Virus record (IMG/VR): IMGVR_UViG_3300012920_000118
Coordinates: 1 to 35,382 of that record
Source of the DNA: a virus
Reading direction: 5' to 3' (one strand)
DNA length: 35,382 nucleotides
Position 1 is the first letter of the stretch. Each line of letters starts with the position of its first letter. This document shows positions 1 through 32,122 of the stretch, in pieces. The notes beneath the pieces were generated by a model, which saw nothing but the letters and a program-made list of their open reading frames with translations, made no database searches and had not been told where the DNA came from. Both the position numbers and the translations under genes were made by a program.

Positions 1-657
1 GGTGCTAATGTTACATTTAAAGATGGTGGCACAACCTTCTTTGATATAGCAAATAACTCAACAGATGTTGAACTAACAGTTAGCGTTGCAGATAAAAACT
101 TTAAAATTAAAGGAACAGATGATTCTAGTGCCATTACTGCCTTGGATATAGATATGGCTGCCGCGGGTGATGCTACCTTCAACGGAGCTGTCTATGCTGG
201 GGGTAACATCGGACTAGACTCTACAGACTTTATCTCATTTACTGATAACACTCGTATGGACGTTACAATAAATGGAAGTAATGAATTTAGATTTGAATCA
301 GACGGAGACTTTCATGCAGACGGAGACGTTATTGCAGCTTCTACAACAGTATCCTCTGACGAGAGATTAAAGGAAAACATTGAAACAATAGAAAACGCAA
401 CTGATAAGATAAAACAAATTAGAGGCGTAACATTTACAAAGAAGCACTCTGGAGAAGAAAGTGCTGGAGTCATAGCACAAGAAGTTGAAAAGATACTACC
501 TTCGGCAGTAAAAGAAAAAATATTGCCTATGGAAACTGGAGACGAAGAGACTCTTTGGAAAACTGTCAAATACGATCAACTTCATGCTTTGTTAATTGAA
601 TCTGTAAAAGAATTAACTAAAAGAGTAGAGGAGTTAGAGAATGGCAACACCGAGTAG
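1..657 (+). CDS. Tail fibre/spike protein, C-terminal part with S74 intramolecular chaperone (5' end outside window)
   Basis: The reading frame is open from base 1, so the start lies upstream of the window. The visible part is a beta-rich, repetitive fibre shaft (T, D, N and G rich). From about nt 350 it becomes a peptidase S74 / endosialidase-type chaperone domain. The hallmark SDERLKENI lies near codons 118-126 and is followed by GVIAQEVEKILPSAV. The end is a helical tail (SVKELTKRVEELENG) that would form a trimeric coiled coil. In this family the domain helps the fibre trimerise and then cleaves itself off at the serine of the SD pair; that serine is present. The stop lies inside the next gene (17-base overlap), which suggests translational coupling with the glycine-rich protein. 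The domain call is secure; the receptor or substrate is unknown. Confidence 0.88.
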   Translation, partial: GANVTFKDGGTTFFDIANNSTDVELTVSVADKNFKIKGTDDSSAITALDIDMAAAGDATFNGAVYAGGNIGLDSTDFISFTDNTRMDVTINGSNEFRFESDGDFHADGDVIAASTTVSSDERLKENIETIENATDKIKQIRGVTFTKKHSGEESAGVIAQEVEKILPSAVKEKILPMETGDEETLWKTVKYDQLHALLIESVKELTKRVEELENGNTE

Positions 658-1738
658 TGGCGAGTTTAAACTACAAGATATCGTAGCAGAGTTTGGTGGA
701 GATGCTCCACACGGACTAACTGAATATTATGCAGGTGGATCTAATGTGGGTTCTGGTACACAGAACGCTCAAGGACAAGCTGTACCTTCAAGTGGTGAAA
801 TAAAACTAACAGATTTTTATGGAACAGCTAACACCTTTTCAATGAACTACCTCATCGTTGCTGGTGGTGGTGGAGGTGGTGTCGCCTTCGGTGGAGGAGG
901 AGGCGGTGGCGGTATGCGTGTCGGCACTGCTCAAATAACTCCAGGAGGTTCTGCATTACAAATAACAGTCGGAGGCGGTGGAGGCTCTGGTGGAAATAGT
1001 GCTGGTGGACAACAAAATGGTGGCACTGGTTCAAACTCTGCTGTAACTAATTTAGGTGGATCTACCTTCACTTCAAATGGTGGTGGATACGGAGCTGGCC
1101 CTGATGGTGCTGGTGGTCAAGGTGGAGCTGGTGGTGGCGGAAAAAAATATCAAGGAATCAACCCTGGTGGTGCTGGTAATACTCCTTCAACATCTCCTTC
1201 TCAAGGTGCAAATGGTGGTCAAGGTTATGGCTTCATTCAGTATCCTGGTGGTAACAACAGATGGGGTGGTGGTGGAGGCGGAGGCGGTGGAGCCTCTGGT
1301 TCAACTGGTGGTAGATTCTGGCCCCAAAGTCCTCACGGTGGTGCAGGAACACAATCAGACATAACTGGTTCAGCCACTTATTATGCTGGTGGTGGCGGTG
1401 GTGGTAGAATAAACTACCCATACTACAATCAACCTGCTGGTGGTCAAGGCGGTGGTGGTCAAGGCGGTGGAAGCATCCAAGAAGTTGGTGGAGGCGGAAA
1501 CCAAGCTGGTGGATCATCTGGTTCAGGAAACACTGGTGGTGGTGGTGGAGGAGCTGGTTCTTCTTACGTCCCTTACAGTGGTGCTTATCTTTCTGCTGGT
1601 AGTGGAGGAAGTGGAGTTGTAGTATTAAAACTTCCAACGGCTAATTATACTGGTCAAACAAGTGGATCACCACAAGTTTCAACAAGTGGACAACAAACGA
1701 TATTGAGATATACTGGCAGTGGTACATTAGCTGTATAG
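641..1738 (+). CDS. Glycine-rich tail adhesin-like protein
   Basis: 365 residues. The N-terminal ~75 residues contain two copies of a PSSGEIKLxDfyG-type motif, common in phage tail proteins. Then comes MNYLIVAGGGGGG and a body dominated by glycine runs interspersed with S, N, Q and A. The last ~45 residues (GSGVVVLKLPTANYTG onward) resemble the cap that closes such glycine-rich domains. This composition recalls polyglycine-II sandwich adhesins such as the gp38 adhesins of T-even phages, so receptor binding at the fibre tip is a reasonable inference. A GAG-rich stretch precedes the ATG, which lies inside the end of the S74 fibre gene. Long open frames on both strands here are by-products of the GGT/GGA repeats. 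The glycine-rich tail assignment is firm; exact placement in the tail is not known. Confidence 0.8.
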   Translation: MATPSSGEFKLQDIVAEFGGDAPHGLTEYYAGGSNVGSGTQNAQGQAVPSSGEIKLTDFYGTANTFSMNYLIVAGGGGGGVAFGGGGGGGGMRVGTAQITPGGSALQITVGGGGGSGGNSAGGQQNGGTGSNSAVTNLGGSTFTSNGGGYGAGPDGAGGQGGAGGGGKKYQGINPGGAGNTPSTSPSQGANGGQGYGFIQYPGGNNRWGGGGGGGGGASGSTGGRFWPQSPHGGAGTQSDITGSATYYAGGGGGGRINYPYYNQPAGGQGGGGQGGGSIQEVGGGGNQAGGSSGSGNTGGGGGGAGSSYVPYSGAYLSAGSGGSGVVVLKLPTANYTGQTSGSPQVSTSGQQTILRYTGSGTLAV

Positions 1739-1746
1739 GAGAAGAA

Positions 1747-2199
1747 ATGGCACATTTTGCAAAAGTAAGAAATTCAGACGGTGTTGTCGTAGAAACTGTT
1801 GTCGTAGCTAACGAAGTTATAGTAGATGGTAGTGGTAACGAGCAAGAGAGTTTGGGAGTTGCTTTTTTAGAAAACATGTATGGCGAAGACAGTGATTATT
1901 CATGGAAACAAACATCATACAATGGTACTTTTAGAAAAAACTTTGCCTCTGTAGGAGATGTGTATGACACACTCAATAATTGGTTTAGAGGTGTGCAACC
2001 TTATGCTTCATGGACATTAAACTCAAGCACTGCACAATGGGAAGCTCCTATAGCTAGACCTAATACTTGGAATGGTGGACAGACAATTTCAAATGACGAC
2101 TTAAGTGATGAAGCTAAAGCAGATGTGTATTTTTGGGATGAGAGTGCATATCAAGCAGATAATACCAAGGGTTGGACTATTATAGACGACCCCGAATAA
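1747..2199 (+). CDS. Conserved phage tail-region protein, function unknown
   Basis: 150 residues, preceded by AGGAGAAGAA. It starts MAHFAKVRNSDGVVVE and contains WKQTSYNGTFRKNFASVGD near residues 57-75, then QPYASWTLN...WEAPIARP. This pattern is familiar from proteins encoded beside tail-fibre genes of cyanophages and other marine phages (the KQTSYNGTFRKNYAGIG signature followed by QPYPSW and W.PP). No enzymatic motif is visible. It lies 8 bases after the glycine-rich adhesin and is probably co-transcribed with it, so an accessory tail role is likely but unproven. Confidence 0.65.
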   Translation: MAHFAKVRNSDGVVVETVVVANEVIVDGSGNEQESLGVAFLENMYGEDSDYSWKQTSYNGTFRKNFASVGDVYDTLNNWFRGVQPYASWTLNSSTAQWEAPIARPNTWNGGQTISNDDLSDEAKADVYFWDESAYQADNTKGWTIIDDPE

Positions 2200-2237: not shown

Positions 2238-2870
2238 ATGTCCGAAAATTTTTACTATATAGTCTATGATAACTTTCTAGACGGCAGAGAGTTTGGCATT
2301 TTTAAACATCATATTGAGATGGATATTGCCTATAATTTAACTCCAAAAATAAATTCTTTAGATGAAAACTCACAGTGGTATTTAGCACAAATGCTTTATA
2401 TAGCAACCACATATTGTGATTGGAACGGAGGTTGGAATAACATGTTTCCTAAAGATCCTCTTTTACTTTTATTAAGTAAAATTCACATGCAAACGATAAT
2501 AAGAGTAAAAGCAAATATGTATCCTAGATCTAGACTTAAAAAAGTAGAAGCTCATGCAAAACATCAAGACTACATTTATGATCATCAAGGAGCATTATTT
2601 TATACAGATGAGTGTGATGCACCCACAACACTTGCAGATGGCACACAGATAGAATCAAAGCCGAACAGATTATTATTGTTTAATCCAGCAACACCACATT
2701 CTAGTTCTTCTCCTACAGATAAGGATTATAGGTTTACAGTTAATATAAATTATTTTGGAATGGGCGTTAAAAAAGATTATTTAAGAGAACATCTTGGCCC
2801 ACCAACAATGGTACACAATCCACCAAAAGGTTGGATAGATGAATATAAAGATATGAGCGATACTTCATGA
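2238..2870 (+). CDS. Putative 2-oxoglutarate/Fe(II)-dependent oxygenase (array member 1)
   Basis: I start at the ATG giving MSENFYYIVYDNF (210 residues). An earlier in-frame start would lie inside the previous gene and add a non-conserved leader. The double-stranded beta-helix signature is visible: proximal iron ligands H109-Q110-D111, then a beta strand (GALFYTDECD), NRLLLFNP, distal ligand H154 in TPHSS, and R165 (DYRFTVNINY) as the likely 2-oxoglutarate carboxylate contact. The NRLLLF...H pattern matches 2OG oxygenase-like proteins of marine T4-like and T7-like phages. No strong ribosome site is seen; a small hairpin precedes the gene. The substrate cannot be read from sequence. It overlaps the next gene by ATGA. 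Confidence 0.68.
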   Translation: MSENFYYIVYDNFLDGREFGIFKHHIEMDIAYNLTPKINSLDENSQWYLAQMLYIATTYCDWNGGWNNMFPKDPLLLLLSKIHMQTIIRVKANMYPRSRLKKVEAHAKHQDYIYDHQGALFYTDECDAPTTLADGTQIESKPNRLLLFNPATPHSSSSPTDKDYRFTVNINYFGMGVKKDYLREHLGPPTMVHNPPKGWIDEYKDMSDTS

Positions 2871-3550
2871 CACGAATACATTCTGTAGGTTCTTTTTCAA
2901 GAATCTATTTAGACGAACATCAATATTTGTTTGTTATAAAATGTGACATGCCAAATAGTTTATCAGAGGATATGATTGAACTTGGAGAAAAGTACATGCT
3001 TTCACCAGATGATCCTCAAGTAGTCACTCCTAATGGTGAACCACAACACGATAACCTTCAAAGATTAGAGGGCAGAACTGGTTGGCATTTACAAAAGACA
3101 CAAGAATATGTTGATATAATAAAACCTAGATTAGATCCAATATTAAGTGGAGGAGTTGTTTCAATTAATGCCTCTGAACATCCACATAAATATGTCTATG
3201 CTATGGTTGATTTATGGGTAGGTTTTTATAAAGAAGATAGTCATGTTTCGAAACACAATCATGATGATGCTTGGGACTCTTTAGCTTTTGCTTGGTATTT
3301 AGATACACCAGAAGATGGAACATACTTAGAGTTTGTTACGGGTAGAAACTATGGAAAAAGAATACATGTTCAAAAAAATCAACTGTTATTATTTAATGGT
3401 CGTTTAAACCATCAGTTTTATGGAAACGCCGCAAAAAGAATTGTTTGCTCTGGCAATCTTATTTTTGCAAACGAGAGATTTTACAAACCAAATGTAGAAG
3501 TGGAGAATAAAAATGTTAATATGGAACAAGCCAAAATCAGTTACTATTGA
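2867..3550 (+). CDS. Putative 2OG/Fe(II) oxygenase (array member 2)
   Basis: 227 residues. The iron-binding core is VSKHNHDDAW (H130, H132, D133), followed by SLAFAWYLDTPEDGTYLEF and then NQLLLFNGRLNHQF (distal H182) and R191 in KRIVCSGNLIF. The order H-x-H/D, strand, LLLFxxxxxH, then R is that of the phage 2OG-Fe(II) oxygenase families. The first ~110 residues carry no motif I recognise. The start overlaps the stop of member 1 (ATGA), and its 3' end overlaps the next gene by 38 bases, so the array is probably translated as a coupled unit. Substrate unknown. Confidence 0.68.
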   Translation: MTRIHSVGSFSRIYLDEHQYLFVIKCDMPNSLSEDMIELGEKYMLSPDDPQVVTPNGEPQHDNLQRLEGRTGWHLQKTQEYVDIIKPRLDPILSGGVVSINASEHPHKYVYAMVDLWVGFYKEDSHVSKHNHDDAWDSLAFAWYLDTPEDGTYLEFVTGRNYGKRIHVQKNQLLLFNGRLNHQFYGNAAKRIVCSGNLIFANERFYKPNVEVENKNVNMEQAKISYY

Positions 3551-4253
3551 TTGTTTCACACCAGTTCAAGCTATAGCAGATAATGCACCTATTGCACATG
3601 CAAAAGAAGTAACTCCTAAATTTTTTAAAGAGTTAAACACTCCAAAAAAAGATCCTAATTTAGTGACAGCTGGTATTAAATCAGATATTAAAGATTGCCA
3701 AGCTTTGATTGATATAAACAACAGAGGTATTGTAGTTCCTCTTTGGTGTAGTTTATTGTTTCAAGGCAACTTCGTTGAAGACGAAAAAGGATTTACAGAC
3801 TATCATCACAAATGGTCAATAACTGATGCAAATTACAGTGGTATGCAACCTTTTAATCCTTTGGACTGGGGAGTAGATAGTCAAAAGGTACATAACATGA
3901 AACAAATATACTATCAGTTTAAAAGTCCTTGGAGAATAAAATCTAATAAGTATGTGCAGTTTATACAAACAAATACTTTTTGGCATCACATGTCTCACGA
4001 TTTCTTTGTAATGAACGGAGTGTTAGATTATTATCATCAAAATGCCGTAAGTTGTATATATGCTATTGGTAAAAAGAAAGACCAAGAAGTAGAACTGCCT
4101 GCTGGAACACCAGTAATGCAAATACTTCCACTAGAAAAAGTAAATCTTAAAATTAAAATACACTGTGTTACAGAACAAGAGTGGAATAAATTAGCACCTT
4201 ACTTTATGTTTTGGAATAAAAATGCTTTACGTTTAAGAAAAATTAGAAAATGA
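3513..4253 (+). CDS. DUF6065-like protein within the oxygenase array
   Basis: 246 residues. Features seen are GIVVPLWCSLLFQG, a central aromatic and histidine-rich stretch (TFWHHMSHDFFVMNGVLDYYH) and a C-terminal LPAGTPVMQILPLEK. The combination of a PLWC segment, a W-rich middle, and AGTPVMQxxPL before the C-terminus recalls the phage family catalogued as DUF6065; I make that link from memory and with moderate confidence. It has no clear HxD...H...R set, so I do not call it a dioxygenase, although the fold could still be a cupin-like beta barrel. It overlaps both neighbours and is therefore part of the same translational unit. Confidence 0.55.
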   Translation: MLIWNKPKSVTIDCFTPVQAIADNAPIAHAKEVTPKFFKELNTPKKDPNLVTAGIKSDIKDCQALIDINNRGIVVPLWCSLLFQGNFVEDEKGFTDYHHKWSITDANYSGMQPFNPLDWGVDSQKVHNMKQIYYQFKSPWRIKSNKYVQFIQTNTFWHHMSHDFFVMNGVLDYYHQNAVSCIYAIGKKKDQEVELPAGTPVMQILPLEKVNLKIKIHCVTEQEWNKLAPYFMFWNKNALRLRKIRK

Positions 4254-4765
4254 TAAATACAAACTGGTTAGCTCACACAAATATTAGTATTGATGGATTT
4301 GAAGATACTTTAAATAATATAACGCAAGGTGAAACACCGATAGATATATCTAATAAATCTACAAGAGGAAATGAGTCATTACAGTTTTCTTTAAACAATT
4401 ATTTTAAAGATATAAAAAATATTACAAATACAGTAACACAACAACTTAAACGCATTGAACCATTACAAAACAAAAAATTTAACTTATTAGAAGGGTGGAC
4501 AGTTTATGGTCGCCAAGGTGGTTATCACATGGTTCATAATCATGGAATATTAAATCATGTTTCAGTTGTAATATATTTGAAAACACCTAAACAAGAAGGT
4601 CAGTTTTATTATTTTTTATTAAACAATAACGAAATAGAGTATGATGAAATTCAACCAGAAGAAGGTATGATGATTGTTATGCCAACAAAAACACTTCATG
4701 GTTCATATCCTCAAGCTAAAGGATTGAGACATACATTAAACTTAGATTTTGAGATGATAGAATGA
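4250..4765 (+). CDS. Putative 2OG/Fe(II) oxygenase (array member 3, HxH type)
   Basis: 171 residues. The core reads GWTVYGRQGGYHMVHNHG, giving H96-N97-H98 in the position of the usual HxD, then HVSVVIYLKTP, distal H150 in KTLHGSYP and R160 in RHTLNLDFE. The pattern W...G..H..HNHG...SVVIYL matches the 2OG-FeII_Oxy_5 style found in marine phages, in which HxH followed by SGvyYl is normal. Start ATG overlaps the upstream stop (ATGA) and its stop overlaps the next ATG. Confidence 0.66.
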   Translation: MINTNWLAHTNISIDGFEDTLNNITQGETPIDISNKSTRGNESLQFSLNNYFKDIKNITNTVTQQLKRIEPLQNKKFNLLEGWTVYGRQGGYHMVHNHGILNHVSVVIYLKTPKQEGQFYYFLLNNNEIEYDEIQPEEGMMIVMPTKTLHGSYPQAKGLRHTLNLDFEMIE

Positions 4766-5304
4766 AATTAAACTTAAAAGATTACTTGTATGTTGAAAAT
4801 CACATACCAGAAAAAATTTGTAATGAGATCGTAGATGATTTAAAAGAATCAAAGTTTGTAGAACATACATGGGGTGGCACAAATATAAAAAAAGATAACG
4901 AATTATCTGTTTGTGTTGATTATGCTGGATCAAACTCACTTGAAGATAGAGTGTGGCAAGTTATACAAAACTATATGAATTTTATTAAGACACCTTGGTA
5001 TTCTGGTTGGCATGGTTTCACACCAGTTAGATTTAACAAGTATGCAAAAGATACAACTATGGCAGAACATTGTGATCACATACATTCTATCTTTGATGGC
5101 AGTATAAAAGGTATTCCAGTATTGAGTGTTGTAGGGTTATTAAACGATAACTATGAAGGTGGCAATTTTGTTATGTTTGAAGACTATAAAGTTTCTTTAA
5201 AACAAGGAGATGTGTTAGTCTTCCCTTCTAACTTTTTATATCCACATAAAGTTACATCAGTTAAAAAAGGCACGAGGTATTCTTTTGTGAGTTGGGTTTG
5301 GTAA
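4762..5304 (+). CDS. 2OG/Fe(II) oxygenase, prolyl-4-hydroxylase-like (array member 4)
   Basis: 180 residues and one of the clearest members. The catalytic core is FNKYAKDTTMAEHCDHIHS (H103-C104-D105), LSVVGLLNDNYEGGNF, QGDVLVFPSNFLYPHKV (distal H162) and KKGTRYSFVSWV (R172). This is the classical P4H / PKHD arrangement: HxD, GGEF-like turn, GDxxxFPS, H, then GxRYS. The N-terminal half (YLYVENHIPEKICNEIV) is the usual helix that introduces the barrel. Family members hydroxylate proline or other residues in proteins or small substrates in the cytoplasm; which one applies here is unknown. Confidence 0.85.
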   Translation: MKLNLKDYLYVENHIPEKICNEIVDDLKESKFVEHTWGGTNIKKDNELSVCVDYAGSNSLEDRVWQVIQNYMNFIKTPWYSGWHGFTPVRFNKYAKDTTMAEHCDHIHSIFDGSIKGIPVLSVVGLLNDNYEGGNFVMFEDYKVSLKQGDVLVFPSNFLYPHKVTSVKKGTRYSFVSWVW

Positions 5305-5846
5305 TGGAACGAGAGTTTATAAGTATTGTTATGAATCAAGTAGTTCCACATAGTCTTTGTGACGAACTCATTAAGATGGGTCAAGATAAGTGGCAAGGTT
5401 CCGTAGTTGGTTTAGATAATGAAATACAATCTACAGTTAGAAAAAGTGACACTTTTTGGATTGGAGAAAAAAGAATACATGATATCTTTTGGTCTTTTAT
5501 GCAAGAAGCGAATATAAGAGGTGGTTGGAATTTTGACATACGCAAAGTACATGAATTACAATTAACAAGATATACTGCACCCTCAGACAAGTATGACTAC
5601 CACATAGATTTACAAGACTCTAAAATAATTGGAGACAATGTTCGTAAATTATCTATGACTTGTTTATTGAATGATGATTTTGAAGGTGGTAAGTTTCAAT
5701 TTAATAATGGTAAAGAAATGACGATAGAATTAAAAAAAGGTGATATTTTATTTTTTCCGTCTTTTTATTTACATAGAGTAAAAAAAGTTACCAAAGGTAC
5801 ACGATATTCTTTGGTTGGCTGGTATTGTGGGGAGTATTTTAAATGA
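5304..5846 (+). CDS. 2OG/Fe(II) oxygenase, prolyl-4-hydroxylase-like (array member 5)
   Basis: 180 residues from the ATG that shares one base with the upstream TAA; an in-frame TTG 12 bases earlier is less likely. The catalytic set is DKYDYHIDLQ (H100-I101-D102), CLLNDDFEGGKFQF, KKGDILFFPSFYLHRV (H157) and KGTRYSLVGWY (R167). Length, spacing and wording closely parallel member 4, so the two are probably paralogues from a local duplication that have since diverged in the N-terminal half. Confidence 0.85.
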   Translation: MEREFISIVMNQVVPHSLCDELIKMGQDKWQGSVVGLDNEIQSTVRKSDTFWIGEKRIHDIFWSFMQEANIRGGWNFDIRKVHELQLTRYTAPSDKYDYHIDLQDSKIIGDNVRKLSMTCLLNDDFEGGKFQFNNGKEMTIELKKGDILFFPSFYLHRVKKVTKGTRYSLVGWYCGEYFK

Positions 5847-6442
5847 TAGTATCTTTGTTTCCAGACGCTATGTATATTAGCGATGATAAATATGTGTTAA
5901 CTAAAAAACAATTTGACACAATTATGAAATTAGATATGAAACAAAACATAAGCAACAAAGTTTCTAAAGAAACTTATCTTTTAAATAAACCAACTTTTAG
6001 AAAATTAAAAAATTGGTTGGAAAAAGAAACAAATAGATATGCAAAAGAAGTTCTAAAATGGAACAGTTTAGATTTTTATATAACTCAGTCTTGGATAAAC
6101 GTAGCAACTAAGGGTGAAAGTCATCATGGACATAGACATCCAAATAGTATGTTAAGTGGGGTTTATTACATATCTCCAGAAGAGTGTCATATAAGAATGA
6201 TGAGAGACACTAAAATGTGGGGTAACTTTGTTTATGATCATGATCCAGAACAAGAAAATGAATTTAATACTTTAAGTGCTAAAGTTCCTGTAGAACAAAA
6301 TAGAGTTGTTATTTTTTTATCTGAACAAGTACATAGTGTAGATCCGATAGAAGATGATAGTATAAGAATATCATTAGCCTTTAACTGTTTTGCAAAGGGT
6401 AATTTAGGAGGAAGAGGACACTCAAGCGAGTTGATACTATAA
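5843..6442 (+). CDS. Putative 2OG/Fe(II) oxygenase (array member 6, 2OG-FeII_Oxy_5 type)
   Basis: 199 residues. The core SHHGHRHPNSMLSGVYYIS (H97-R98-H99) is the hallmark of the 2OG-FeII_Oxy_5 family, followed by distal H164 in SEQVHSV and R175 in DSIRISLAFNCF. The N-terminal domain, with its TQSW...VATKGE lead-in to the metal site, also fits that family. Start overlaps the upstream stop (ATGA). Substrate unknown. Confidence 0.78.
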   Translation: MIVSLFPDAMYISDDKYVLTKKQFDTIMKLDMKQNISNKVSKETYLLNKPTFRKLKNWLEKETNRYAKEVLKWNSLDFYITQSWINVATKGESHHGHRHPNSMLSGVYYISPEECHIRMMRDTKMWGNFVYDHDPEQENEFNTLSAKVPVEQNRVVIFLSEQVHSVDPIEDDSIRISLAFNCFAKGNLGGRGHSSELIL

Positions 6443-6931
6443 ATGTTTTTTATAGATAATGCTGTAGACCCTTACTATATTTATGAATATTATAATAAAA
6501 TAAATAAGTATTTTCATGAAAAAGTAAGTCAAGGTGCAAGTTACACGGACTTTTATCCTGCAAGAAACATGGCACTTGATAAAGATGATAAGATTATAAA
6601 GATAGTGCAAGATCTATTAGAAAGTAAACTAAGAATTAAGTTAACTTGTCATGATGCAGAGCTTCAGACATGGCCCATTGGTGTAGACAGTGCATTACAT
6701 GTGCATGGGAAAGAAGGTGGTAGACCAGAAGGTGATTATAACAGTTTACTTTATCTTAATGATAATTTTGAAGAAGGTGAATTTTATACAGGTCATGGTG
6801 TTACTTTAAAACCAAAAAAGAACAGACTTACTTTTTTTGATGGTGAAAACATACCTCATGGAGTAAAAAAGGTTTATGGACATCACAGATACACAGCAAT
6901 TTTTTGGTGGACAAATACAAAACATGAATAA
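6443..6931 (+). CDS. Putative 2OG/Fe(II) oxygenase (array member 7, HxH variant)
   Basis: 162 residues, starting on the base after the previous stop. The second half carries LQTWPIGVDSALHVHGKEGG (H86-V87-H88), NSLLYLNDNFEEGEF, KPKKNRLTFFDGENIPHGV (distal H139) and GHHRYTAIFWW (R149). The EEGEFY turn and NRLTFF...PHGV strand are typical of prolyl-hydroxylase-like barrels. At the proximal site an HVH occupies the place where HxD is expected, so metal binding may use a different acidic residue or be altered. The member is therefore a likely but not certain active enzyme. Confidence 0.68.
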   Translation: MFFIDNAVDPYYIYEYYNKINKYFHEKVSQGASYTDFYPARNMALDKDDKIIKIVQDLLESKLRIKLTCHDAELQTWPIGVDSALHVHGKEGGRPEGDYNSLLYLNDNFEEGEFYTGHGVTLKPKKNRLTFFDGENIPHGVKKVYGHHRYTAIFWWTNTKHE

Positions 6932-7484
6932 AAAATTTAAACTAATTGATAAAACTCTTTGTAACTTTTTGTGTCATCACATAAAAGCAATAGAACCTCT
7001 TGTGGGACAAACCACCAGTTATGACAACGGAATGATTCTTGGTAGTTATGAATATTTACACGACCCTTTGTTTGAAAGTTTGCTAACTCTTGTACAACCA
7101 ATTGTAGAAAAACAATATGGTAAACCATTATTGCCTACATATTCTTGTTGGAGAACGTATGGCAAAGGTCAAAATTTACATCCTCACAAAGACAGACCTT
7201 CTTGTGAAGTAAGTGTTAGTCTACACATAGGTAGTTCAAACGATAAATACAAATGGAAGTTTTTTGTTGACGAACAATCATTTACTACAAAACCAGGAGA
7301 GTGTGTTCTTTACAAAGGTATGGCACAACAGCACTGGAGAAACGATTTAGAAATAGATTGGCACACACAAGCTTTTTTACATTATGTAGAAAAAGATGGG
7401 AACTGGTCAGATTTTATCTATGATAAAAGAGGTGGTTTACATAGAACTCAAGAAAACCCTGGACATGTGCTAGATCCAAGATGA
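6924..7484 (+). CDS. 2OG/Fe(II) oxygenase-like protein (array member 8)
   Basis: 186 residues from the ATG overlapping the upstream gene end by 8 bases; upstream in-frame starts would read through the previous gene. The core is YGKGQNLHPHKDRPSCEVSV (H88-K89-D90), TTKPGECVLYKGMAQQHWR (distal H137, R139) and WHTQAFLHYVE. The HPHKDR-CEVS...L..G pattern, followed by GE.vlYkG...HwR, is recognisable from phage proteins annotated as 2OG-Fe(II) oxygenases. This is the last member of the array; 38 bases later the virion genes resume. Confidence 0.75.
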   Translation: MNKKFKLIDKTLCNFLCHHIKAIEPLVGQTTSYDNGMILGSYEYLHDPLFESLLTLVQPIVEKQYGKPLLPTYSCWRTYGKGQNLHPHKDRPSCEVSVSLHIGSSNDKYKWKFFVDEQSFTTKPGECVLYKGMAQQHWRNDLEIDWHTQAFLHYVEKDGNWSDFIYDKRGGLHRTQENPGHVLDPR

Positions 7485-7522
7485 CAAGTTGTTTAATTAG
7501 TTAATTTGAGGTAATATAAGCT

Positions 7523-9382
7523 ATGCCTTTAACATCATTAAAATTTAGACCCGGTATTAATAGAGAAATAACTTCTTATTCAAATGAAGGTGGTTTCTTT
7601 GATTGTGAAAAAGTAAGATTTTATGCAGGCTTTCCAGAAAAAATAGGTGGTTGGGTCAAGCAATCTGACAACACATATCAAGGAACAGCAAGAGCTTTAC
7701 ATAACTGGGTAGCTTTAGATAATTCTAATTTTTTAGGAGTTGGAACACACCTTAAATATTATATAGAAGAAGGTGGAGATTTTAACGATATAACACCAGT
7801 TCGTAAAACATCTACAAATAGTATAACTTTTGCAGCAGTCGATGGCTCTGCCGAACTTACAGTTACAGATAGTTCTCACGGTGCAGTAGCAAATGATTTT
7901 GTTACAATATCTGGTGCAGTCAGTTTGGGTGGTAATATAACTGCCGCCGTATTGAATACAGAACATCAAATAACTTCTATAGTTAATGGTAATTCATATA
8001 AGATTACTGTAAGTGCTACGGCTAATTCATCTGATAGTGGCAATGGTGGTTCTGGTGTTGATGGTGTATATCAAATAAATGTAGGTTTAGACACTACCGT
8101 TGGAGGTAATGGATGGGGGGCTGGAGGTTATGGTGGTGTTAACGCAGATTTATCTACATTTGGATGGGGTGAAGCTGCGGCTAGTGGTACAACTGCTCAA
8201 ATTCGTATTTGGTCACATGATAATTTTGGTGAAGATTTACTTCTAAACCCAAAAGACAGCGGTATTTTTTATTGGGACAAGTCAAATGGTCTTGGCACAC
8301 GAGCCGTAAACTTAACATCTGTGGCGGGTGCTTCTAATGTACCAACTGTTGCAAAACAAATACTTGTCTCTGATATTGATCGACACATTATTGTATTTGG
8401 AACTAACCCACTAGGGAGCACGGATCAAGATCCATTGCTAATTAGATTTGGTTCTCAAGAGTCTCTAACTGATTTTACTCCAACTGCAACAAACACGGCA
8501 GGTGATTTAAGACTTGGTAGTGGCTCTACGTTTGTACAAGCAGTAGAAACAAAACAACAGATACTTGTCTTTACGGATAAAGCTGTTTTTTCTATGAGAT
8601 TTATTGGGCCGCCATTTACATTTGGATTACAAGAACTTTCAAAGAATATCACAATCATGAGTCCAAAGTCTGCAATAGCTATTGATGATGCAGTGTTTTG
8701 GATGGGTAAAGATAGTTTTTATGTATATGGAGGACAAACTCAACAACTTCCATGTTCTGTACGAGACAAAGTATTTTTAGATTTTAACAATTCTCAAGCA
8801 GATAAAGTATTTGCTGGTGCTAACTCCAAGTGGGGAGAAATATGGTGGTTTTATCCTTCTGCTAATAGTGCAGAGATAGATAAGTATGTTATTTACAATT
8901 ATTTAGAAAAGACATGGTATTATGGATCATTATCTAGAACTGCTTGGCATGATAGAGGTATAAGAACATTTCCGATTGCAGCAGGCTCCTCTTATTTATT
9001 TGAACATGAAAATGGTAATGATGATGACGGTAGTGCAATGACTGCATCCGTAGAATCAAGTCAGATAGACATAGGAGATGGATATCAGTTTAGTTTTATA
9101 AAACAACTTATACCAGATATTACTTTTGATGGATCAACAGTTTCAACTCCAGCGGCAAGTTTTACTTTACAAGCCAGAAATGGACCAGGTAGTCCTTATG
9201 ATAATACTTCATCTGGGACTAGCACAAGATCAGCGACAACTCCAGTAGAGCAATTTACTGACACTTTAAATGTAAGATTAAGAGGTAGATCGTTTAACAT
9301 GAAGCTTGAATCAACAGGACAAGGAGTGATGTGGAAACTTGGGACACCAAGAGTAGATGTTAGACCAGATGGGAGAAGATAG
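7523..9382 (+). CDS. Tail hub / DNA-stabilisation protein, P22 gp10-like
   Basis: 619 residues. It begins MPLTSLKFRPGINREIT, then EKVRFYAGFPEKIGGWV, a common opening in podovirus proteins of the packaged-DNA stabilisation class (P22 gp10-like, part of the short tail). The centre has FTDKAVFSMRFIGPPFTFG and DDAVFWMGKDSFYVYGG, and the end has RLRGRSFNMKLES. A glycine- and serine-rich insertion of about 80 residues lies at residues 105-190. A GAGG sequence lies 10-15 bases before the ATG. The gene opens the virion block after the oxygenase array. Confidence 0.68.
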   Translation: MPLTSLKFRPGINREITSYSNEGGFFDCEKVRFYAGFPEKIGGWVKQSDNTYQGTARALHNWVALDNSNFLGVGTHLKYYIEEGGDFNDITPVRKTSTNSITFAAVDGSAELTVTDSSHGAVANDFVTISGAVSLGGNITAAVLNTEHQITSIVNGNSYKITVSATANSSDSGNGGSGVDGVYQINVGLDTTVGGNGWGAGGYGGVNADLSTFGWGEAAASGTTAQIRIWSHDNFGEDLLLNPKDSGIFYWDKSNGLGTRAVNLTSVAGASNVPTVAKQILVSDIDRHIIVFGTNPLGSTDQDPLLIRFGSQESLTDFTPTATNTAGDLRLGSGSTFVQAVETKQQILVFTDKAVFSMRFIGPPFTFGLQELSKNITIMSPKSAIAIDDAVFWMGKDSFYVYGGQTQQLPCSVRDKVFLDFNNSQADKVFAGANSKWGEIWWFYPSANSAEIDKYVIYNYLEKTWYYGSLSRTAWHDRGIRTFPIAAGSSYLFEHENGNDDDGSAMTASVESSQIDIGDGYQFSFIKQLIPDITFDGSTVSTPAASFTLQARNGPGSPYDNTSSGTSTRSATTPVEQFTDTLNVRLRGRSFNMKLESTGQGVMWKLGTPRVDVRPDGRR

Positions 9383-9681
9383 TGTCCTCACGAAACACAG
9401 CTCCACCAAGATTACCTCTTCCAATAGGTGGTGTCACCGAAATGTACATGACAGATCTAATAAACGCTTTAGATTTTTTTATTACACAAACAACCAATCC
9501 TGGTGAAGGAAGAAACACAAAATTAGTTTTTACAGATATGCCAACAAGTGACACAGGATTAGAACCTGGAACCTTGTATAGAATAGGAAATGATGTTAAG
9601 ATATCTTTATTGAACATAGCTGGTGTTGATGGTAACTCAGCAACGACTTCTTTAGGGACTGTAACTGTATCGGTATCGTAA
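9382..9681 (+). CDS. Small conserved virion-region protein
   Basis: 99 residues from a GTG that overlaps the upstream TAG by one base; no ATG gives a comparable frame, and the reading frame fills the gap exactly between its neighbours. Sequence begins MSSRNTAPPRLPLPIGGV and contains TDLINALDFFITQ, with a beta-rich C-terminus (TSLGTVTVSVS). No family function is recognised. Its position between the tail protein and internal virion proteins suggests a minor structural role. Confidence 0.6.
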   Translation: MSSRNTAPPRLPLPIGGVTEMYMTDLINALDFFITQTTNPGEGRNTKLVFTDMPTSDTGLEPGTLYRIGNDVKISLLNIAGVDGNSATTSLGTVTVSVS

Positions 9682-10452
9682 ATGGGAATATTTAAAAGTT
9701 TTACAAAAATTTTAAAAAAAGCAGCACCAATTATAGGTGGCACAATAGGTTTTGCTATAGCACCAGGGTTTTTGGGTCCAGCTCTTGGGACAGGAATTGG
9801 TAGTCTTTTAGGAGGAGCTGACGCAGAGGATGCTTTAAAAGCCGCGGCTCTTGGTGGCATAGCTGGATACGCGGGTAGTAAATTTATGGCTCCCACTGCC
9901 GAAGCAGTAAAAGCCACAACACCCGCATCTTTTGGTTTTGAAGCTGCGTCAAAAGTACCAGTTACTGCTGTATCAACAACACCATTAGCTTCTGAAGGTA
10001 TTATGTCTTCAGTATTGGACTTTGCTAAGTCACCAGTGGGTATCGCTAGTATTGTGGGTGCTGGAGGTTTAGCGGCTCTTGGTGGAGAGGAAGAAGAGAC
10101 AGCTAAAAAAGAAGAAAGACCTTTTCCAAGAGGTACATCAAGATTAGGCATGGGAATGGTAGATGGAAAGTCTTACAATTTAAATAATAAAGAAGAAAGA
10201 GACGAGTATTTTAGAAGAGTTAGAGCAAAACAAGGTTTTGAAGATGATGTAGGTATAGATCCAGTATACTCTGCTAGTGGTGGTGAGGTAACTGGACCAG
10301 GGACTGGTACAAGTGATTCTGTACCAGCAAGACTATCAGATGGTGAGTTTGTATTGACTGCTAAAGCTGTCAGAGGAGCTGGTGGTGGAGATAGGGACTT
10401 GGGTGCAGCAAGAATGTATGATATGATGTCAGAGTTAGAGAGGGTCGCATAA
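9682..10452 (+). CDS. Minor/internal virion protein with glycine-rich hydrophobic N-terminus
   Basis: 256 residues. The N-terminal ~75 residues are a hydrophobic, alanine- and glycine-rich segment (KAAPIIGGTIGFAIAPGFLG) that could insert in a membrane. A second hydrophobic patch lies at about residues 110-135. The C-terminus has GGEVTGPGTGTSDSVPARLS then DGEFVLTAKAVRGAGGG, a motif recurring in marine podovirus virion proteins. These features fit a protein ejected with DNA or lining the tail, but direct evidence is lacking. It ends in TAATG overlap with the next gene. Confidence 0.55.
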   Translation: MGIFKSFTKILKKAAPIIGGTIGFAIAPGFLGPALGTGIGSLLGGADAEDALKAAALGGIAGYAGSKFMAPTAEAVKATTPASFGFEAASKVPVTAVSTTPLASEGIMSSVLDFAKSPVGIASIVGAGGLAALGGEEEETAKKEERPFPRGTSRLGMGMVDGKSYNLNNKEERDEYFRRVRAKQGFEDDVGIDPVYSASGGEVTGPGTGTSDSVPARLSDGEFVLTAKAVRGAGGGDRDLGAARMYDMMSELERVA

Positions 10453-11453
10453 TGGCAGATCAAAATATTACACAAGAACAAACCGTTAGACTTGCTCCGT
10501 TTCAAGAAGAATTTTTAGCTGATATATTTGCAAGTGCTAAAAACTTAACTGGTGATGGCACACAAATGCCTTTTGCTGAACAGCAGTTGGCAGGCTTATC
10601 ACAAGGTCAACAAGCAGCTATAGCAAACGCACTAAGTGGAGTAGGTGGTTTTCAACCTTTTCTTGATAAAGGTGCAGAGGCAATTGGTTCTGGAATTGGT
10701 GCAGTTGGCACTGGTCTTGGAACAATAGGAAGTGCTATAGGTCAAGCGGCAGGTGCTGGCTTTGATCCAACATCTTATCAACAATTCATGAATCCTTTTC
10801 AAGAAGATGTAATTGCAGCCACACAAGCTGATATAGCAAGACAAGGACAAATGCAAAGAAATCAAATAGGTGCTCAAGCTGTTGGTGGTGGAGCATTTGG
10901 TGGATCAAGACAAGCAGTAGCAGAGCAAGAACTCGCTAGAAATGTCATGGATCAACAAGCAAGAACTGGAGCACAGTTAAGATCACAAGGATTTCAACAA
11001 GCACAAAATTTAGCACAACAACAAGCTAATCAAGCGTTAAGACAAGCACAACTTACTGGTCAATTAGGACAAGCAACTGGTGCTCTCGGATCACAGATTG
11101 GACAAATGGGTGTGCAAACTGCTGGACTAGGACAACTTGGTCAACAGTTAGGAGTGCAGGATATCAATACACTATTAGGTATTGGTGGTCTTCAACAACA
11201 ACAAGGACAGAAAGAACTTGACGTTGAAAGAGCTAACGAACTTGCAAGACAATCGTTACCTTATCAACAAGTTGGATTTATGTCTGATATATTTAGAGGT
11301 GTACCAGCATTACAACAAACAACTTCAACAACAACTAGACCTGGTCCAAGTACAGGATCACAGTTACTTGGTTTAGGAATCGCGGGTCTTGGAGCGGTAG
11401 GACAAGCTGGTGGCTTTAGTAATTTCTTTGGGCCTCAACCGAGGATAGCATAA
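10452..11453 (+). CDS. Internal virion / DNA ejection-like protein, Q/A/G-rich
   Basis: 333 residues, extremely rich in Q, A and G. Seen are LAPFQEEFLADIFASAK at the start, NPFQEDVIAATQADIARQGQ near residue 114, GAFGGSRQAVAEQELARNV near 148, and long QA-rich helical stretches. The NPFQ..VI..T...I.R..........GAFGGSR pattern is widespread in marine podovirus internal virion proteins. Likely role: helical ejection protein. It is coupled to its neighbours by one-base or ATGA overlaps. Confidence 0.58.
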   Translation: MADQNITQEQTVRLAPFQEEFLADIFASAKNLTGDGTQMPFAEQQLAGLSQGQQAAIANALSGVGGFQPFLDKGAEAIGSGIGAVGTGLGTIGSAIGQAAGAGFDPTSYQQFMNPFQEDVIAATQADIARQGQMQRNQIGAQAVGGGAFGGSRQAVAEQELARNVMDQQARTGAQLRSQGFQQAQNLAQQQANQALRQAQLTGQLGQATGALGSQIGQMGVQTAGLGQLGQQLGVQDINTLLGIGGLQQQQGQKELDVERANELARQSLPYQQVGFMSDIFRGVPALQQTTSTTTRPGPSTGSQLLGLGIAGLGAVGQAGGFSNFFGPQPRIA

Positions 11454-16200: not shown

Positions 16201-18041
16201 TTAGAAATGCTAGAAGAAAGATGCAGAATGCTGCAATAGGAAAAGCAAAAAATCGACTTCAGTTTCAAGGGCAAAGAATTTCTTTTGATGATCTAAATAA
16301 AGAACAACAAAATAGTTTAATTGCAGGTGCAGTAAGAGATGCAGACAGAGAGTTTGCTCGTTACATAGGAGCTAAACCAGATGCAGTTGGTGATGAACTT
16401 GATGAAGCATTTAAACAGTTTACAGCAGATAATATTCGTAACTTAGTTCCAAACTACGAACTTGTACCAGACATTATAAAAGGATTAAGAGGATTACCTC
16501 TTGGTAACTTTATTGCTTTTCCTGCAGAGATTTTAAGAACTGGATTTAACACATTAGATGTTGCTATGAAAGAATTAGCAAGTGATAGTGCAGCCATAAG
16601 AGAGATAGGAGCAAGGAGATTAACTAATTCTTTGTTCACATTCAGTGCGTTGGGAGATGGACTACAAAGATTTGGTCAAATGATGACTGGAACTTCAGAC
16701 GAGGAAGTCGATGCAATCAATAGATTATCTGCTCCTTGGCAAAGAAACTCTGTGTTGATACCAGTAGGTAAAGATGAAAAAGGTAATCCAGAAGTTATAG
16801 ATTTTAGCTACACGAACCCTTGGGACATGTTGTCTAAACCCTTCCACACAGTTTTTAGATCATTAAGAGAGGGATCAAGATTACAAAAATCTGACTTTGC
16901 CAATATTAGAGGAGCGGCATTTGATTCTCTAGCTGAATTTTTTAGTCCTTTCTTTGAAGTATCTATGATTTATGATGCGGCCCTTGATGTGCTACCAAAA
17001 GAGAGTGCATTAGGACTTGGAGTTGGAAGAGGAGGACGAACTCGTTCTGGTGCTAAAGTTTATAAAGAAGGTGATGGTTTAGGGTTGTCCATAGAAAAAA
17101 GTATAATACATCTTCTTGATACTCTTAAACCAAACATTATTCCGATCAGAGTTCCAACTGGTGCAGATCTTGGTATTACTAGAGGACAACCAGTTAAGTC
17201 TCCAGAACTTGGCAGAACTGCAAGAGGTCTTTTATTTCCAGAGGGTGGAGAGTTTTTGGGATTTAATGTAAAAGCAGAGGAGCCTACTACTGGAAGAGAG
17301 TATACAAGATATGGTGAATTATTTAGAGCTTTTACTGGATTACAATCTCAAGTTATAGATAGAGATAAGATTGCAGAGTTTAAAGCTCAAGAGTTTAAAT
17401 CACTTAGATCAGAGGCAGCCACATTATTTACTGATGCTTTACGATTAGAAGACCCATCAAAAGAACAGATGTTAGAAGCATATCTAAGAGCAGATGACGC
17501 TAGGCTCAAGGCATTTAGAGAAATGAAATTAAATTATGATAGTTTAAAACGATTAGGTTTTACTAATAATAAAATAGCTAGAATATTAAGAGAGAAAGCT
17601 GGCATAGGAAAAAAAGAAATATTTTCTTTGAGAGCAGATAAATACATACCGTATTTGCCAAGTAAAGAAAGACTGGGTGCAGCTATTAGAAAAGGAATTA
17701 AAGTGCCTTATTCTACTATCATGAGATTATACAGAAAAAGATTTGGAATGAGATTGACTCCAGAACCTAAAGAAAAGGTCTCACCACCAACTGTAAATGA
17801 TTTTTTAAGTTTAACAAACACTAAAGGAAATCCTAACTTTAAAGTTAATCCGTTAAACGAAAATCAAAAAATACCAGAACAGACAACGCAAAGAATTACG
17901 GAAGAGCCGAACATAAATGTAGCAACAGTTACAAGTCAACTTCTTAATCCTGCACCAGAGAACAGACAAATAGCAGAGTTTTTAGGTGGTAATCCAGAAC
18001 AGATACTAAAGAATATGGAGATTGCAAGGAGAACAGGATAA
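13233..18041 (+). CDS. Giant internal virion / ejection protein (T7 gp16-like in position and size)
   Basis: 1602 residues, the largest gene in the window. It starts MFTYNVDGKNYTYSKEIGQE. It has hydrophobic stretches near residues 65-130 (GIISVGTLASDAITGG, FGIPGVAAASAVSK) and ~190 (ATMLGAAGLADAIV), then over a thousand residues of largely helical, basic/acidic sequence with many short repeats of Q/E/K/R. I looked for a lytic transglycosylase motif and did not see a convincing one. Podoviruses commonly carry one such giant protein that forms the transperiplasmic DNA conduit; that role is inferred from size, position and composition. Four bases separate it from the preceding gene. Confidence 0.58.
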   Translation: MFTYNVDGKNYTYSKEIGQEEAERRVRQFEEKIAKAQKGDPQEYEGFFTEAGEGVLSGLSKIPEGIISVGTLASDAITGGNATGLVEQWFDGLREDLGIDPTGAAGKVTEALVQFGIPGVAAASAVSKVGRVARIMRGQPRMAVKNRKIESYQLGTKLGAVRKGRDPFTMFEKKPTVFGLPGKVRTKAQKVGRYATMLGAAGLADAIVSTDDTQTLGDFFDAGPTNTVDAVGKDGQERAFAKIANKLKVGLEGGIATGVIPPALGASFTVLNKTLGARPVEGIRALNEKVGNIAGKILPENTTVLDIASGMTVPLARGMIDTAKRSIAKREELLTKDPQQLSTLSGFIAKMESLLRYRGFLDPVVARARSLINPEVEGNIKIAKQKMQEIDKKITETLKNPRFTGLPDHSKRKYVDNFMDVLEGARKNQNLRGLSRNQQQIARQKANKIIDLPDELYTLYVDAANMIKKLSDQFVASKVIQDLPDDAVIQGNLTRYQFEAQVEKMMREGGYLRRLYRIYNDKNYKIQPQAKEAIIQKIIAREGTDLGHIRGILSETPMRISDQQMDDIINGGATLTRQQAEAYINRVVSNAKAKGGNRGIGLNRLFQTRLDTSLINKRKVDSQVLREILGEVRDPREAFISTVSELSNFVATDRFLSLFKQSADANIASVAARNAARATEVGATPEKQLFFKMDDEIIKYIKERATTYDVDPNQISRIGQLDQQLLGKALDDWLEDNPNHVILGRSGETTVARDAYSPGANQTSSIYGTMFGYAIPRVMFNNLSNHIWTDADTMPTLLRKTYGMMQTLKGATQYAKTILSPLTQVRNVTSASGFAIAQGNYGKGASLGSSFNIVLRDAIDKELKTKNMTFLDLQRDNQTLDFLVEMQKRGVIGSSAQLREIQENLRKGLGYEGTGGFVQGLKEFDPRGKQLTQGQRAEKQLGKSDPTFDAEKRSKLGQFFRGPLGFAEDLYRGGDDVWKIYNYLFELQKFRNARRKMQNAAIGKAKNRLQFQGQRISFDDLNKEQQNSLIAGAVRDADREFARYIGAKPDAVGDELDEAFKQFTADNIRNLVPNYELVPDIIKGLRGLPLGNFIAFPAEILRTGFNTLDVAMKELASDSAAIREIGARRLTNSLFTFSALGDGLQRFGQMMTGTSDEEVDAINRLSAPWQRNSVLIPVGKDEKGNPEVIDFSYTNPWDMLSKPFHTVFRSLREGSRLQKSDFANIRGAAFDSLAEFFSPFFEVSMIYDAALDVLPKESALGLGVGRGGRTRSGAKVYKEGDGLGLSIEKSIIHLLDTLKPNIIPIRVPTGADLGITRGQPVKSPELGRTARGLLFPEGGEFLGFNVKAEEPTTGREYTRYGELFRAFTGLQSQVIDRDKIAEFKAQEFKSLRSEAATLFTDALRLEDPSKEQMLEAYLRADDARLKAFREMKLNYDSLKRLGFTNNKIARILREKAGIGKKEIFSLRADKYIPYLPSKERLGAAIRKGIKVPYSTIMRLYRKRFGMRLTPEPKEKVSPPTVNDFLSLTNTKGNPNFKVNPLNENQKIPEQTTQRITEEPNINVATVTSQLLNPAPENRQIAEFLGGNPEQILKNMEIARRTG

Positions 18042-18085
18042 ACACCCAGATTATAAAAGGTTGTTGTACCAATAGTTACCTTGAC

Positions 18086-18577
18086 ATGATGAAGCAAGAA
18101 GCAGAGCGAAGTGAATCTTGGTCATTTAGATTTCCTATTGATGATAAAAAATATATTCCAATAGAAGATAAATTCGCTAAACTTATTTTAATAACAAAAC
18201 AACAAGGGATACACAAAGAAAACGCAGTGTTAGCAGGCATGGCAATAGGTTTACTTATACAGATATGGGAAAAATCAGAAAGAAAGTTTTTTATTCCACA
18301 AATTCAATGGTGTGGAATATCTATCAAAGATTCAAGCAGAGAGGACAACACACACTCTGATCATGAAAAGGGAAGCGGCTTAGTTAAAGTATTAGGTACA
18401 CTAAATTCAGACTGGGATACAAAAAAAATGGGTGGTGGTTTTACTCATGGTAAAACTACATATCCATTAGAGCCAACAGACTTTATCATTTTTGATGCGT
18501 CTGTTCCACACAGAGCAGAAACTATGATTACAAACAAAAAAAGATTTGCTATAGATTATACATTAAAAGGAGTTTGA
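18086..18577 (+). CDS. 2OG/Fe(II) oxygenase-like protein, separate from the array (ninth copy)
   Basis: 163 residues; two adjacent ATGs, either possible, with no strong ribosome site. The catalytic set is complete: DNTHSDHEKG (H90-S91-D92), LGTLNSDWD, TDFIIFDASVPHRA (distal H142) and KKRFAIDYTL (R153). N-terminal half has no hallmark I know. It sits between the giant virion protein and the endolysin, 44 bases after the former and overlapping the latter's ribosome site. It is not closely similar to any of the eight array members by eye, so it probably entered independently. Confidence 0.68.
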   Translation: MMKQEAERSESWSFRFPIDDKKYIPIEDKFAKLILITKQQGIHKENAVLAGMAIGLLIQIWEKSERKFFIPQIQWCGISIKDSSREDNTHSDHEKGSGLVKVLGTLNSDWDTKKMGGGFTHGKTTYPLEPTDFIIFDASVPHRAETMITNKKRFAIDYTLKGV

Positions 18578-18579
18578 AC

Positions 18580-19035
18580 ATGAGATTATCAAAAAATTTT
18601 AGCTTGGCAGAGTTTACAAAATCGCAGACAGCAGAAAGAAAAGGCATTGACAATACGCCAGAGGATCACCACATAGAAGCTATGGAGCAGTTGTGTCATG
18701 GCGTGTTAGAAATGATACGCTATCACTTCAAAAAACCTTTGGTTATAAATTCTGGATATCGAAGTGTTGCTTTGTGTGAGGCGATTGGTTCAAAAGCCAC
18801 CAGTCAACATGCAAAAGGTCAAGCGGCTGATATAGAAATACCAGGTGTCGATAATTTAGAACTTGCTAAATATATACAAGACACTCTAGATTTTGATCAA
18901 TTGATCTTAGAGTGTTATACTGGAGAGCCAAGTTCTGGTTGGGTTCATGTTTCATACAACAACGAAGGTAACAACAGACAAGATGTTCTTACCTACGATA
19001 GAACAAATGGATATAGAAAAGGATTGATCACATGA
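18580..19035 (+). CDS. Endolysin, peptidase M15A family
   Basis: 151 residues. AAAAGGAG lies about 8 bases before this ATG, which decides the start over an in-frame TTG six bases upstream. Zinc-peptidase motifs are clear: VINSGYRS (residues ~58-65), SQHAKGQAADIEI (first zinc ligand H and D), and GWVHVSYN near the C-terminus (second histidine ligand). M15A enzymes cut peptide cross-links of peptidoglycan; in phages they act as endolysins at the end of infection. No signal peptide, and no holin is recognisable next to it. Confidence 0.87.
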   Translation: MRLSKNFSLAEFTKSQTAERKGIDNTPEDHHIEAMEQLCHGVLEMIRYHFKKPLVINSGYRSVALCEAIGSKATSQHAKGQAADIEIPGVDNLELAKYIQDTLDFDQLILECYTGEPSSGWVHVSYNNEGNNRQDVLTYDRTNGYRKGLIT

Positions 19036-19244
19036 TAAAAGCTGGGCCGCTAAAAGATCACATAGATGCAGATCATGGTGATATGGTCATTAAACAAGAA
19101 TTTATAACAATTAAAATTGTTGACGGTGTTATTATTAGAGAAGTTGTGACAAGAAACTTTGAATGGAATGGTAATTATATTGACCACAAAGAAACAGAAC
19201 CCATAGTTAATCTAGAAATAATTCCAAAACATATGTTGAACTAA
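19032..19244 (+). CDS. Small conserved phage protein, unknown function
   Basis: 70 residues, ATGA overlap with the endolysin stop and one-base overlap with the following gene. The sequence is acidic/hydrophilic with beta-strand character (FITIKIVDGVIIREVVTRNF, then WNGNYIDHKE). No membrane segment, so it is not a holin. No family recognised. Confidence 0.55.
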   Translation: MIKAGPLKDHIDADHGDMVIKQEFITIKIVDGVIIREVVTRNFEWNGNYIDHKETEPIVNLEIIPKHMLN

Positions 19245-31910: not shown

Positions 31911-32122
31911 GTGGTCACCTTGTGTGGTCTCATTGCTCTCACCTTTAGCTCATTTTCCATTTTACCGATTGTGTTTGTCACATATCTTCTTTCTTTAGAT
32001 ACTGGATGTGTATAAATATAAGTATCAGAGTGTGGATGATCTTCATCCAATTTATTCCTATAAGTATACATACTTCTAACAAACAACTCTATTTCTTTTT
32101 GTGATATTTTAAGATGTGCCAT
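31907..32122 (-). CDS. Small phage protein, unknown
   Basis: 71 residues: MAHLKISQKEIELFVRSMYT at the N-terminus, DEDHPHSDTYIYTHPVSKER in the middle, basic C-terminus. It overlaps the methyltransferase end by 14 bases and the following gene by ATGA, and GGAGAG precedes the ATG. No family recognised. Confidence 0.5.
   Translation of the reverse strand: MAHLKISQKEIELFVRSMYTYRNKLDEDHPHSDTYIYTHPVSKERRYVTNTIGKMENELKVRAMRPHKVTT

Follow-up and report, generated by a model that had tools for sequence, protein, structure and literature searches.

The closest described relatives of the system analysed here are the HTVC023P-type pelagiphages, which carry eight co-located kinds of 2-oxoglutarate (2OG)-Fe(II) oxygenase/"ferrochelatase" genes (Wittmers 2022, PMC9599517). 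Cyanophages have up to five 2OG oxygenases per genome, plus prnA and carbamoyltransferase genes (Sullivan 2010, PMC3037559), and S-SZBM1 has nine that are scattered in its genome (PMC9146016). Fe(II)-dependent oxygenases are also among the most frequent genes of metaviromic islands, where they were classed as host recognition (Mizuno 2014, PMC3909814). Here we analyse a 35,382-base virus contig (IMG/VR record IMGVR_UViG_3300012920_000118, positions 1 to 35,382; the window) in which nine + strand genes, g1 to g9, follow one another at 2238–7484; eight of them are predicted 2OG/Fe(II) oxygenases, which form a single run linked to the neighbouring adhesin gene.

The HTVC023P-type genes belong to the same families, and an equivalent gene region is present in HTVC023P and 023Pt_psg01; there, however, the genes were read as auxiliary metabolic and placed nearby but "not adjacent", the ferrochelatase was taken to be a heme enzyme, and the term "tail fibre" does not occur in the text (PMC9599517). 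The cyanophages likewise have multiple 2OG oxygenases per genome, and the S-SSM5 and S-SM2 copies lie directly after tail-fibre genes, but these enzymes were read as modulating 2OG or as DNA repair (PMC3037559, PMC9146016). The island study describes no array, no co-variation with adhesin type and no mechanism (PMC3909814). PiuC (PKHD-type) and the prolyl 4-hydroxylases, which are the solved relatives closest to g6 and whose folds are among those most similar to the g9 model, are, unlike the array, single cellular genes, and their identity to the phage proteins is low. An earlier note on this DNA had stated that marine phages usually carry one or a few such oxygenases, which the gene contents of S-SZBM1 and the HTVC023P-type phages contradict; the window array is a large example of a class already known in part, and the phenomenon is more general than that note stated. 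Our literature search, which had partial coverage, yielded no earlier report of a link between array content and adhesin type, of the block exchange or of a correction to the two public labels discussed below, and the adhesin linkage, the block swap and the relabelling appear to be new, whereas clustered oxygenases and oxygenases in variable islands had already been published.

Genes labelled 2OG oxygenase, "ferrochelatase", "endonuclease V", prnA and carbamoyltransferase recur in abundant ocean phages and have been explained as metabolism or DNA repair. Their link to the adhesin and their exchange as a unit offer one testable explanation for such genes, and because the whole block is swapped together with the gene of the host-binding protein in related phages, our analysis suggests that the enzymes chemically tune phage host recognition.

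Exchange of the adhesin and its array

From the left end of the window the late genes are an S74 fibre tip, a glycine-rich adhesin, a 150-aa protein, the nine-gene array and a conserved virion structural gene, here called the anchor, through which 80 relatives were retrieved. Several oxygenase genes of one operon thus lie between the fibre and adhesin genes on one side and a tail or head-completion gene on the other, which supports the position given in the earlier note. In close relatives the slot between fibre and anchor keeps its place in the gene order, but it holds anything from zero to nine genes. Positions 7494–29900 of the window are 89–96% identical in DNA to two relatives (IMGVR_UViG_3300030451_001154 and 3300030116_002265, our loci L001 and L248), with similarity starting 10 bases past the last stop codon of the array; upstream of 7494 the alignment is limited to 205 bases in g1, at 68% identity, and these relatives have a class I adhesin (that of the window is class II) and seven other array genes. 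Another pair, L051 and L059, is 94% identical on each side and shares nothing in between. For pairs whose flanks are both >80% identical, ~1% of the adhesin-array DNA is shared if the adhesin classes differ, as against 34% if they are the same, and the loci of the window's phage group that have a DUF7483-type adhesin contain a slot without oxygenases. Phages that are otherwise nearly identical differ in this block, which also contains receptor-binding genes, as is the case for a metaviromic island or host-recognition cassette; that the adhesin itself binds the receptor we infer from its position and composition. We are confident that the array belongs to a host-recognition block that can be exchanged between phages.

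No conserved recombination sequence was seen at the block edges, and a scan of the array for internal promoters and terminators found no excess over chance; the phase-diversifying system that the earlier note had entertained thus finds no support in the block-edge sequences, promoters or terminators examined. A short terminator-like hairpin with a T-rich tail is present at 2205–2223, in the 38-nt gap before g1, in a scan whose total was not above chance.

Loci were classified by adhesin class and their array contents compared over 34 dereplicated loci, a survey of the kind that the earlier note had proposed. The mean Jaccard distance between arrays is 0.65 within an adhesin class and 0.97 between classes, and this gap is seen at every level of anchor divergence. 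Array content is linked to adhesin class when anchor distance is given (partial r 0.67, with 0/2000 label permutations as high) and hardly to the anchor when adhesin class is given (partial r 0.14), in statistics that ignore phylogeny and by which linkage and function are not separable. In the 14 class I loci, each of the three constant oxygenases tracks adhesin divergence (partial r 0.49–0.64 given the anchor), and a conserved upstream gene does not (r -0.09).

Assignment of the nine genes

The nine consecutive, tightly overlapping genes reported in the earlier note are borne out by their coordinates and junction gaps (-4, -38, -4, -4, -1, -4, 0 and -8 nt from g1 to g9). Because all eight junctions overlap or abut, the array is likely to be one operon with translational coupling. 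That note had recognised eight of the genes as oxygenase-like by an ordered HxD or HxH...H...R set of residues. We rejected this pattern alone as proof of identity, since it occurs in 23–53% of shuffled versions of these proteins, and relied on conservation within families. Genes g4, g5, g6, g7 and g8 pass the Pfam cut-offs of 2OG oxygenases (PF13759 or PF13640); g2 matches phrog_81 ("2OG-Fe(II) oxygenase") at 6e-11 and the g7 profile at 93% probability; and phrog_274 includes g1 (3.8e-29) and is matched by g4, g6, g7 and g8 too. Residues H109xD111, H154 and R165 of g1 are invariant across 17 diverged relatives. In the g5/g6 family the corresponding columns hold H in 89/89, D or E in 89/89, the distal H in 89/89 and R or K in 89/89 sequences, and in the PF13759-type family of g2, g4 and g7 HxH, the distal H and R or K are each present in 33/33. 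The median ratios of nonsynonymous to synonymous substitution rates (dN/dS) of array genes in relatives are 0.05–0.23.

The facial triad is HxD...H in g1, g5, g6 and g9 and HxH...H in g2, g4, g7 and g8 (in g8 this HxH replaces the HxD or HxE of its relatives), a count that amends the earlier tally of HxD and HxH sites. An Arg or Lys for 2OG lies ~10 residues past the distal His in g1, g2 and g4–g8; g9 is without the usual Arg and has an invariant R139 and H153 instead, which also corrects the earlier description. The double-stranded beta-helix is assigned by predicted structure in g9, by Pfam in g4–g8 and by profile links in g1 and g2. By these comparisons, eight of the nine genes are confirmed to be of the 2OG/Fe(II)-oxygenase type, four with a three-histidine site, and are predicted to be catalytically active.

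Other proteins tried as oxygenases, namely DUF6445 (cluster 17), the PP-loop proteins (cluster 22) and clusters 27, 34, 53 and 65, were unsupported by profile comparison and were left uncounted. Among the 89 g5/g6-family sequences of loci L001–L080, 51 have D and 38 have E as the acid of the metal site, while at the 2OG site 51 have R and 38 have K; matching numbers of this kind suggest paired D/R and E/K subfamilies.

The public labels of two families look wrong. Relatives of g9 are labelled "ferrochelatase", and the relatives and PHROG of g1 are labelled DNA endonuclease V. The AlphaFold2 model of g9 has a predicted local distance difference test (pLDDT) score of 87, and 2OG oxygenases head its structural match lists (best Z 16.5, root mean square deviation 2.3 over 148 residues; 415 chains with E below 0.001); g9 matched no Pfam family, ferrochelatase included, at E up to 1, and the model points to a 2OG oxygenase fold. 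We doubt the endonuclease V label because g1 has the invariant HxD...H...R set and shares phrog_274 with other array members; g1 has no Pfam endonuclease V match, its only matches at E up to 1 being AraC_binding and 2OG-FeII_Oxy_3, both weak. Profile searches of g1 and g9 against solved structures gave no useful match. The relabelling corrects annotations that stand behind claims on phage heme and iron metabolism. Two fusions involve the g9 family: a 355-aa protein (L003:7013–8080) joins a g9-type domain to an additional domain, and phrog_3531 joins a g9-like half to a g5/g6-like half.

The remaining gene, g3, is modelled as a dUTPase-like beta-clip (pLDDT 79.5, best Z 10.2, best Foldseek E 4e-3); no dUTPase model is among its Pfam matches at E up to 1, and it is without dUTPase sequence features. 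Of the structure predictions that the earlier note had suggested as a check, that of g9 thus returned a 2OG oxygenase and that of g3 a fold that is not an oxygenase. Single-sequence searches of viral contigs found no close relatives of g2 or g3, and the g3 relatives were collected with an alignment-based search; they approach DUF6065, and their alignment (A4) has invariant P35, C62, K130, W140, P206 and H217. Because a DUF6065-like gene is present in 48/80 loci around g9 homologues, a g3-type gene is, by sequence similarity, a regular companion of such arrays and no accident of the window phage.

Related arrays and possible substrates

Profiles built from the relatives place the same oxygenase families next to glycine-rich adhesins in HTVC023P, 023Pt_psg01, Mosig (a Pelagibacter myophage with six such oxygenases in a row) and S-SSM5, and such genes follow tail-fibre genes in S-SM2 and Bellamy; isolated podoviruses and T4-like phages thus have similar arrays next to genes for adhesins or tails, in some cases with tryptophan halogenases or carbamoyltransferases. 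In 10/10 dereplicated isolates listed with both, homologues of 1747–2199 and of g9 lie 0–10 kb apart, in genomes of 60–205 kb. The anchor is present in 67, and a g5/g6-type oxygenase as well in 79, of 80 IMG/VR loci centred on g9 homologues. These families are absent from all 80 control loci around the DNA polymerase, a sample mostly from the window's own group at a distance from the late genes, which shows location rather than overall rarity. Glycine-rich proteins are lost to the bias filter, and the layouts of g9-family loci were read without it; tblastn searches of phage records for adhesin homologues gave N-terminal matches only, in Vibrio and Xanthomonas phages.

Related slots also hold tryptophan halogenases, carbamoyltransferases, a pyridoxal phosphate (PLP)-dependent Cys/Met-metabolism enzyme, PP-loop proteins, DUF6445 and a glycosyltransferase, and most of these other enzymes are of kinds that decorate a substrate. 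Halogenase genes in array-bearing loci (L159:8234–9748, which sits between array and anchor, and L184:4002–5525, both Pfam-confirmed; L180:1201–2832 and L133:12646–14205, by similarity) suggest a context for the unexplained cyanophage prnA. Carbamoyltransferase genes lie within arrays, sometimes two per locus (L144:7446–8933, L158:5482–6981, L172:5225–6793 and 9654–11153, and L153), and that of S-SSM5 lies directly before its array (L101:9626–11290). The PLP-dependent enzyme is near the anchor end of the array (L018:5590–6735, L111:11011–12144).

The operon position, the block exchange and the adhesin-specific content are most simply explained by enzymes that act at the stage of recognition, on either the adhesin or the receptor; general metabolism and DNA repair fit poorly because neither should depend on adhesin class. 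In the mechanism that we propose, the nine genes would be the enzyme half of an exchangeable block in which fibre tip, adhesin and small tailoring enzymes recombine together. The enzymes would most likely be late products that work in the cytoplasm and, while virions assemble, oxidise adhesin or fibre side chains, and every adhesin type would arrive with the enzymes that finish it. We favour the adhesin as substrate for two reasons: PKHD-type and prolyl hydroxylases are the solved proteins most closely related to g6, and the genes are inside a structural operon. We offer this whole, with adhesin or fibre as substrate, as the best explanation, tentatively and at slightly less than an even chance.

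Several points weigh against it. Co-inheritance could come from physical linkage alone, and receptor-side enzymes would track adhesin type as well. The window is a partial exception, since its adhesin is of class II but its g1 and g9 come from families otherwise typical of class I. The earlier note had named the adjacent glycine-rich adhesin as a possible target; arrays accompany adhesins of several compositions, some of them not glycine-rich, so that this adhesin type is no obligate substrate and a single target is not evident. The literature searched contained nothing relevant on a modified phage adhesin of this kind or on the hydroxylation of tail proteins in phages. Should the adhesin prove to be the substrate, post-translational chemistry would be a new layer of phage host-range evolution. 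The wider proposition that marine phages chemically encode host range, every adhesin class having an interchangeable set of its own of hydroxylases, halogenases and carbamoyltransferases that finish the adhesin post-translationally, is doubtful; if true, it would unite several cyanophage and pelagiphage "auxiliary metabolic genes" as one system.

The main rival predicts the same genetics, including the co-variation with adhesin class. The enzymes would modify host surface glycans, outer-membrane proteins or their precursors, so that infected cells and debris stop binding sister phages or resist competitors, and the set would have to match the receptor and hence the adhesin. Glycosyltransferases adjoin the anchor in HTVC023P and HTVC027P, and one lies within the array in L157, as such a role might lead one to expect; however, the genes are inside the structural operon and not among early genes, and the solved relatives of g6 are not sugar enzymes, and we consider this reading unlikely.

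Decidedly unlikely is that the slot following the adhesin acts as a hot spot of recombination and gathers auxiliary genes of 2OG, iron and amino-acid metabolism, its linkage to the adhesin being merely physical. The published readings are metabolic (PMC3037559, PMC9599517, PMC12753301), and the PLP, PP-loop and carbamoyltransferase enzymes of the slot would suit such cargo, but array content hardly follows the anchor, which is equally close on the other side, unrelated phages again have these families next to adhesin or tail genes, and array-free relatives have a different adhesin type. That the oxygenases, halogenases and carbamoyltransferases, whose kinds resemble natural-product tailoring sets, make a small molecule, or a peptide, directed at competitors or at the host is very improbable, since the slots read showed no gene that would make a scaffold and the window array holds oxygenases and g3 only. 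DNA repair or base modification by AlkB- or TET-like enzymes, as proposed for cyanophage homologues (PMC9146016) and in line with a DNA methyltransferase gene at window 32109–33179, is scarcely credible given the adhesin-operon position, the dependence on adhesin class and the Pfam result for the AlkB-type family 2OG-FeII_Oxy_2, which only g5 matched, weakly and below cut-off (13.6 bits vs 31.2).

Features and backbone of the window

Table 1. Genes and block edge at the left end of the window.
Feature	Position	Strand	Basis
Tail fibre, C-terminal part with Peptidase_S74 chaperone domain (gene cut by window edge)	1..657	+	Pfam PF13884 9e-18; PHROG tail fibre
Class II glycine-rich adhesin, 34% Gly	641..1738	+	Homologous adhesins in HTVC023P, psg01, Mosig, S-SSM5
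Conserved adhesin partner gene, 150 aa, phrog_7759 (function unknown)	1747..2199	+	
g1, 2OG oxygenase-type, phrog_274 family, HxD...H...R invariant	2238..2870	+	PHROG match, conservation in relatives
g2, 2OG oxygenase-type, HxH...H...R	2867..3550	+	phrog_81 6e-11; profile match to g7
g3, non-oxygenase, DUF6065-like, dUTPase-like beta-clip fold	3513..4253	+	Predicted structure, alignment
g4, 2OG-FeII_Oxy_5 (PF13759), HxH...H...R	4250..4765	+	Pfam, family conservation
g5, 2OG-FeII_Oxy_3 (PF13640), HxD...H...R	4762..5304	+	Pfam, family conservation
g6, 2OG-FeII_Oxy_3 (PF13640), HxD...H...R, related to PiuC/prolyl 4-hydroxylases	5304..5846	+	Pfam, family conservation
g7, 2OG-FeII_Oxy_5 (PF13759; TIGR02466 above its cut-off), HxH...H...R	5843..6442	+	Pfam, family conservation
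g8, 2OG-FeII_Oxy_3 (PF13640), HxH replacing HxD/E	6443..6931	+	Pfam, family conservation
g9, predicted 2OG oxygenase fold, HxD...H, atypical 2OG site	6924..7484	+	Predicted structure
Right-hand edge of exchanged block; DNA similarity to relatives starts	7494..7499		DNA alignment
Virion structural gene "stabilization protein", conserved; synteny anchor	7523..9382	+	PHROG match

The DNA polymerase of the window is 49–53% identical to those of HTVC023P, HTVC027P and 023Pt_psg01, and also 49% identical to that of phage DSL-LC04, reported from a gammaproteobacterium; the backbone resembles that of the HTVC023P-type pelagiphages, and the host is likely to be Pelagibacter-like. A ferredoxin-type PHROG protein is encoded at 19244–19897. 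A 540-base stretch at 18040–18580, which includes an open reading frame at 18086–18577 (phrog_37187), is missing from the near-identical L001, L185, L202 and L248 and is an apparent single-gene insertion in the window.

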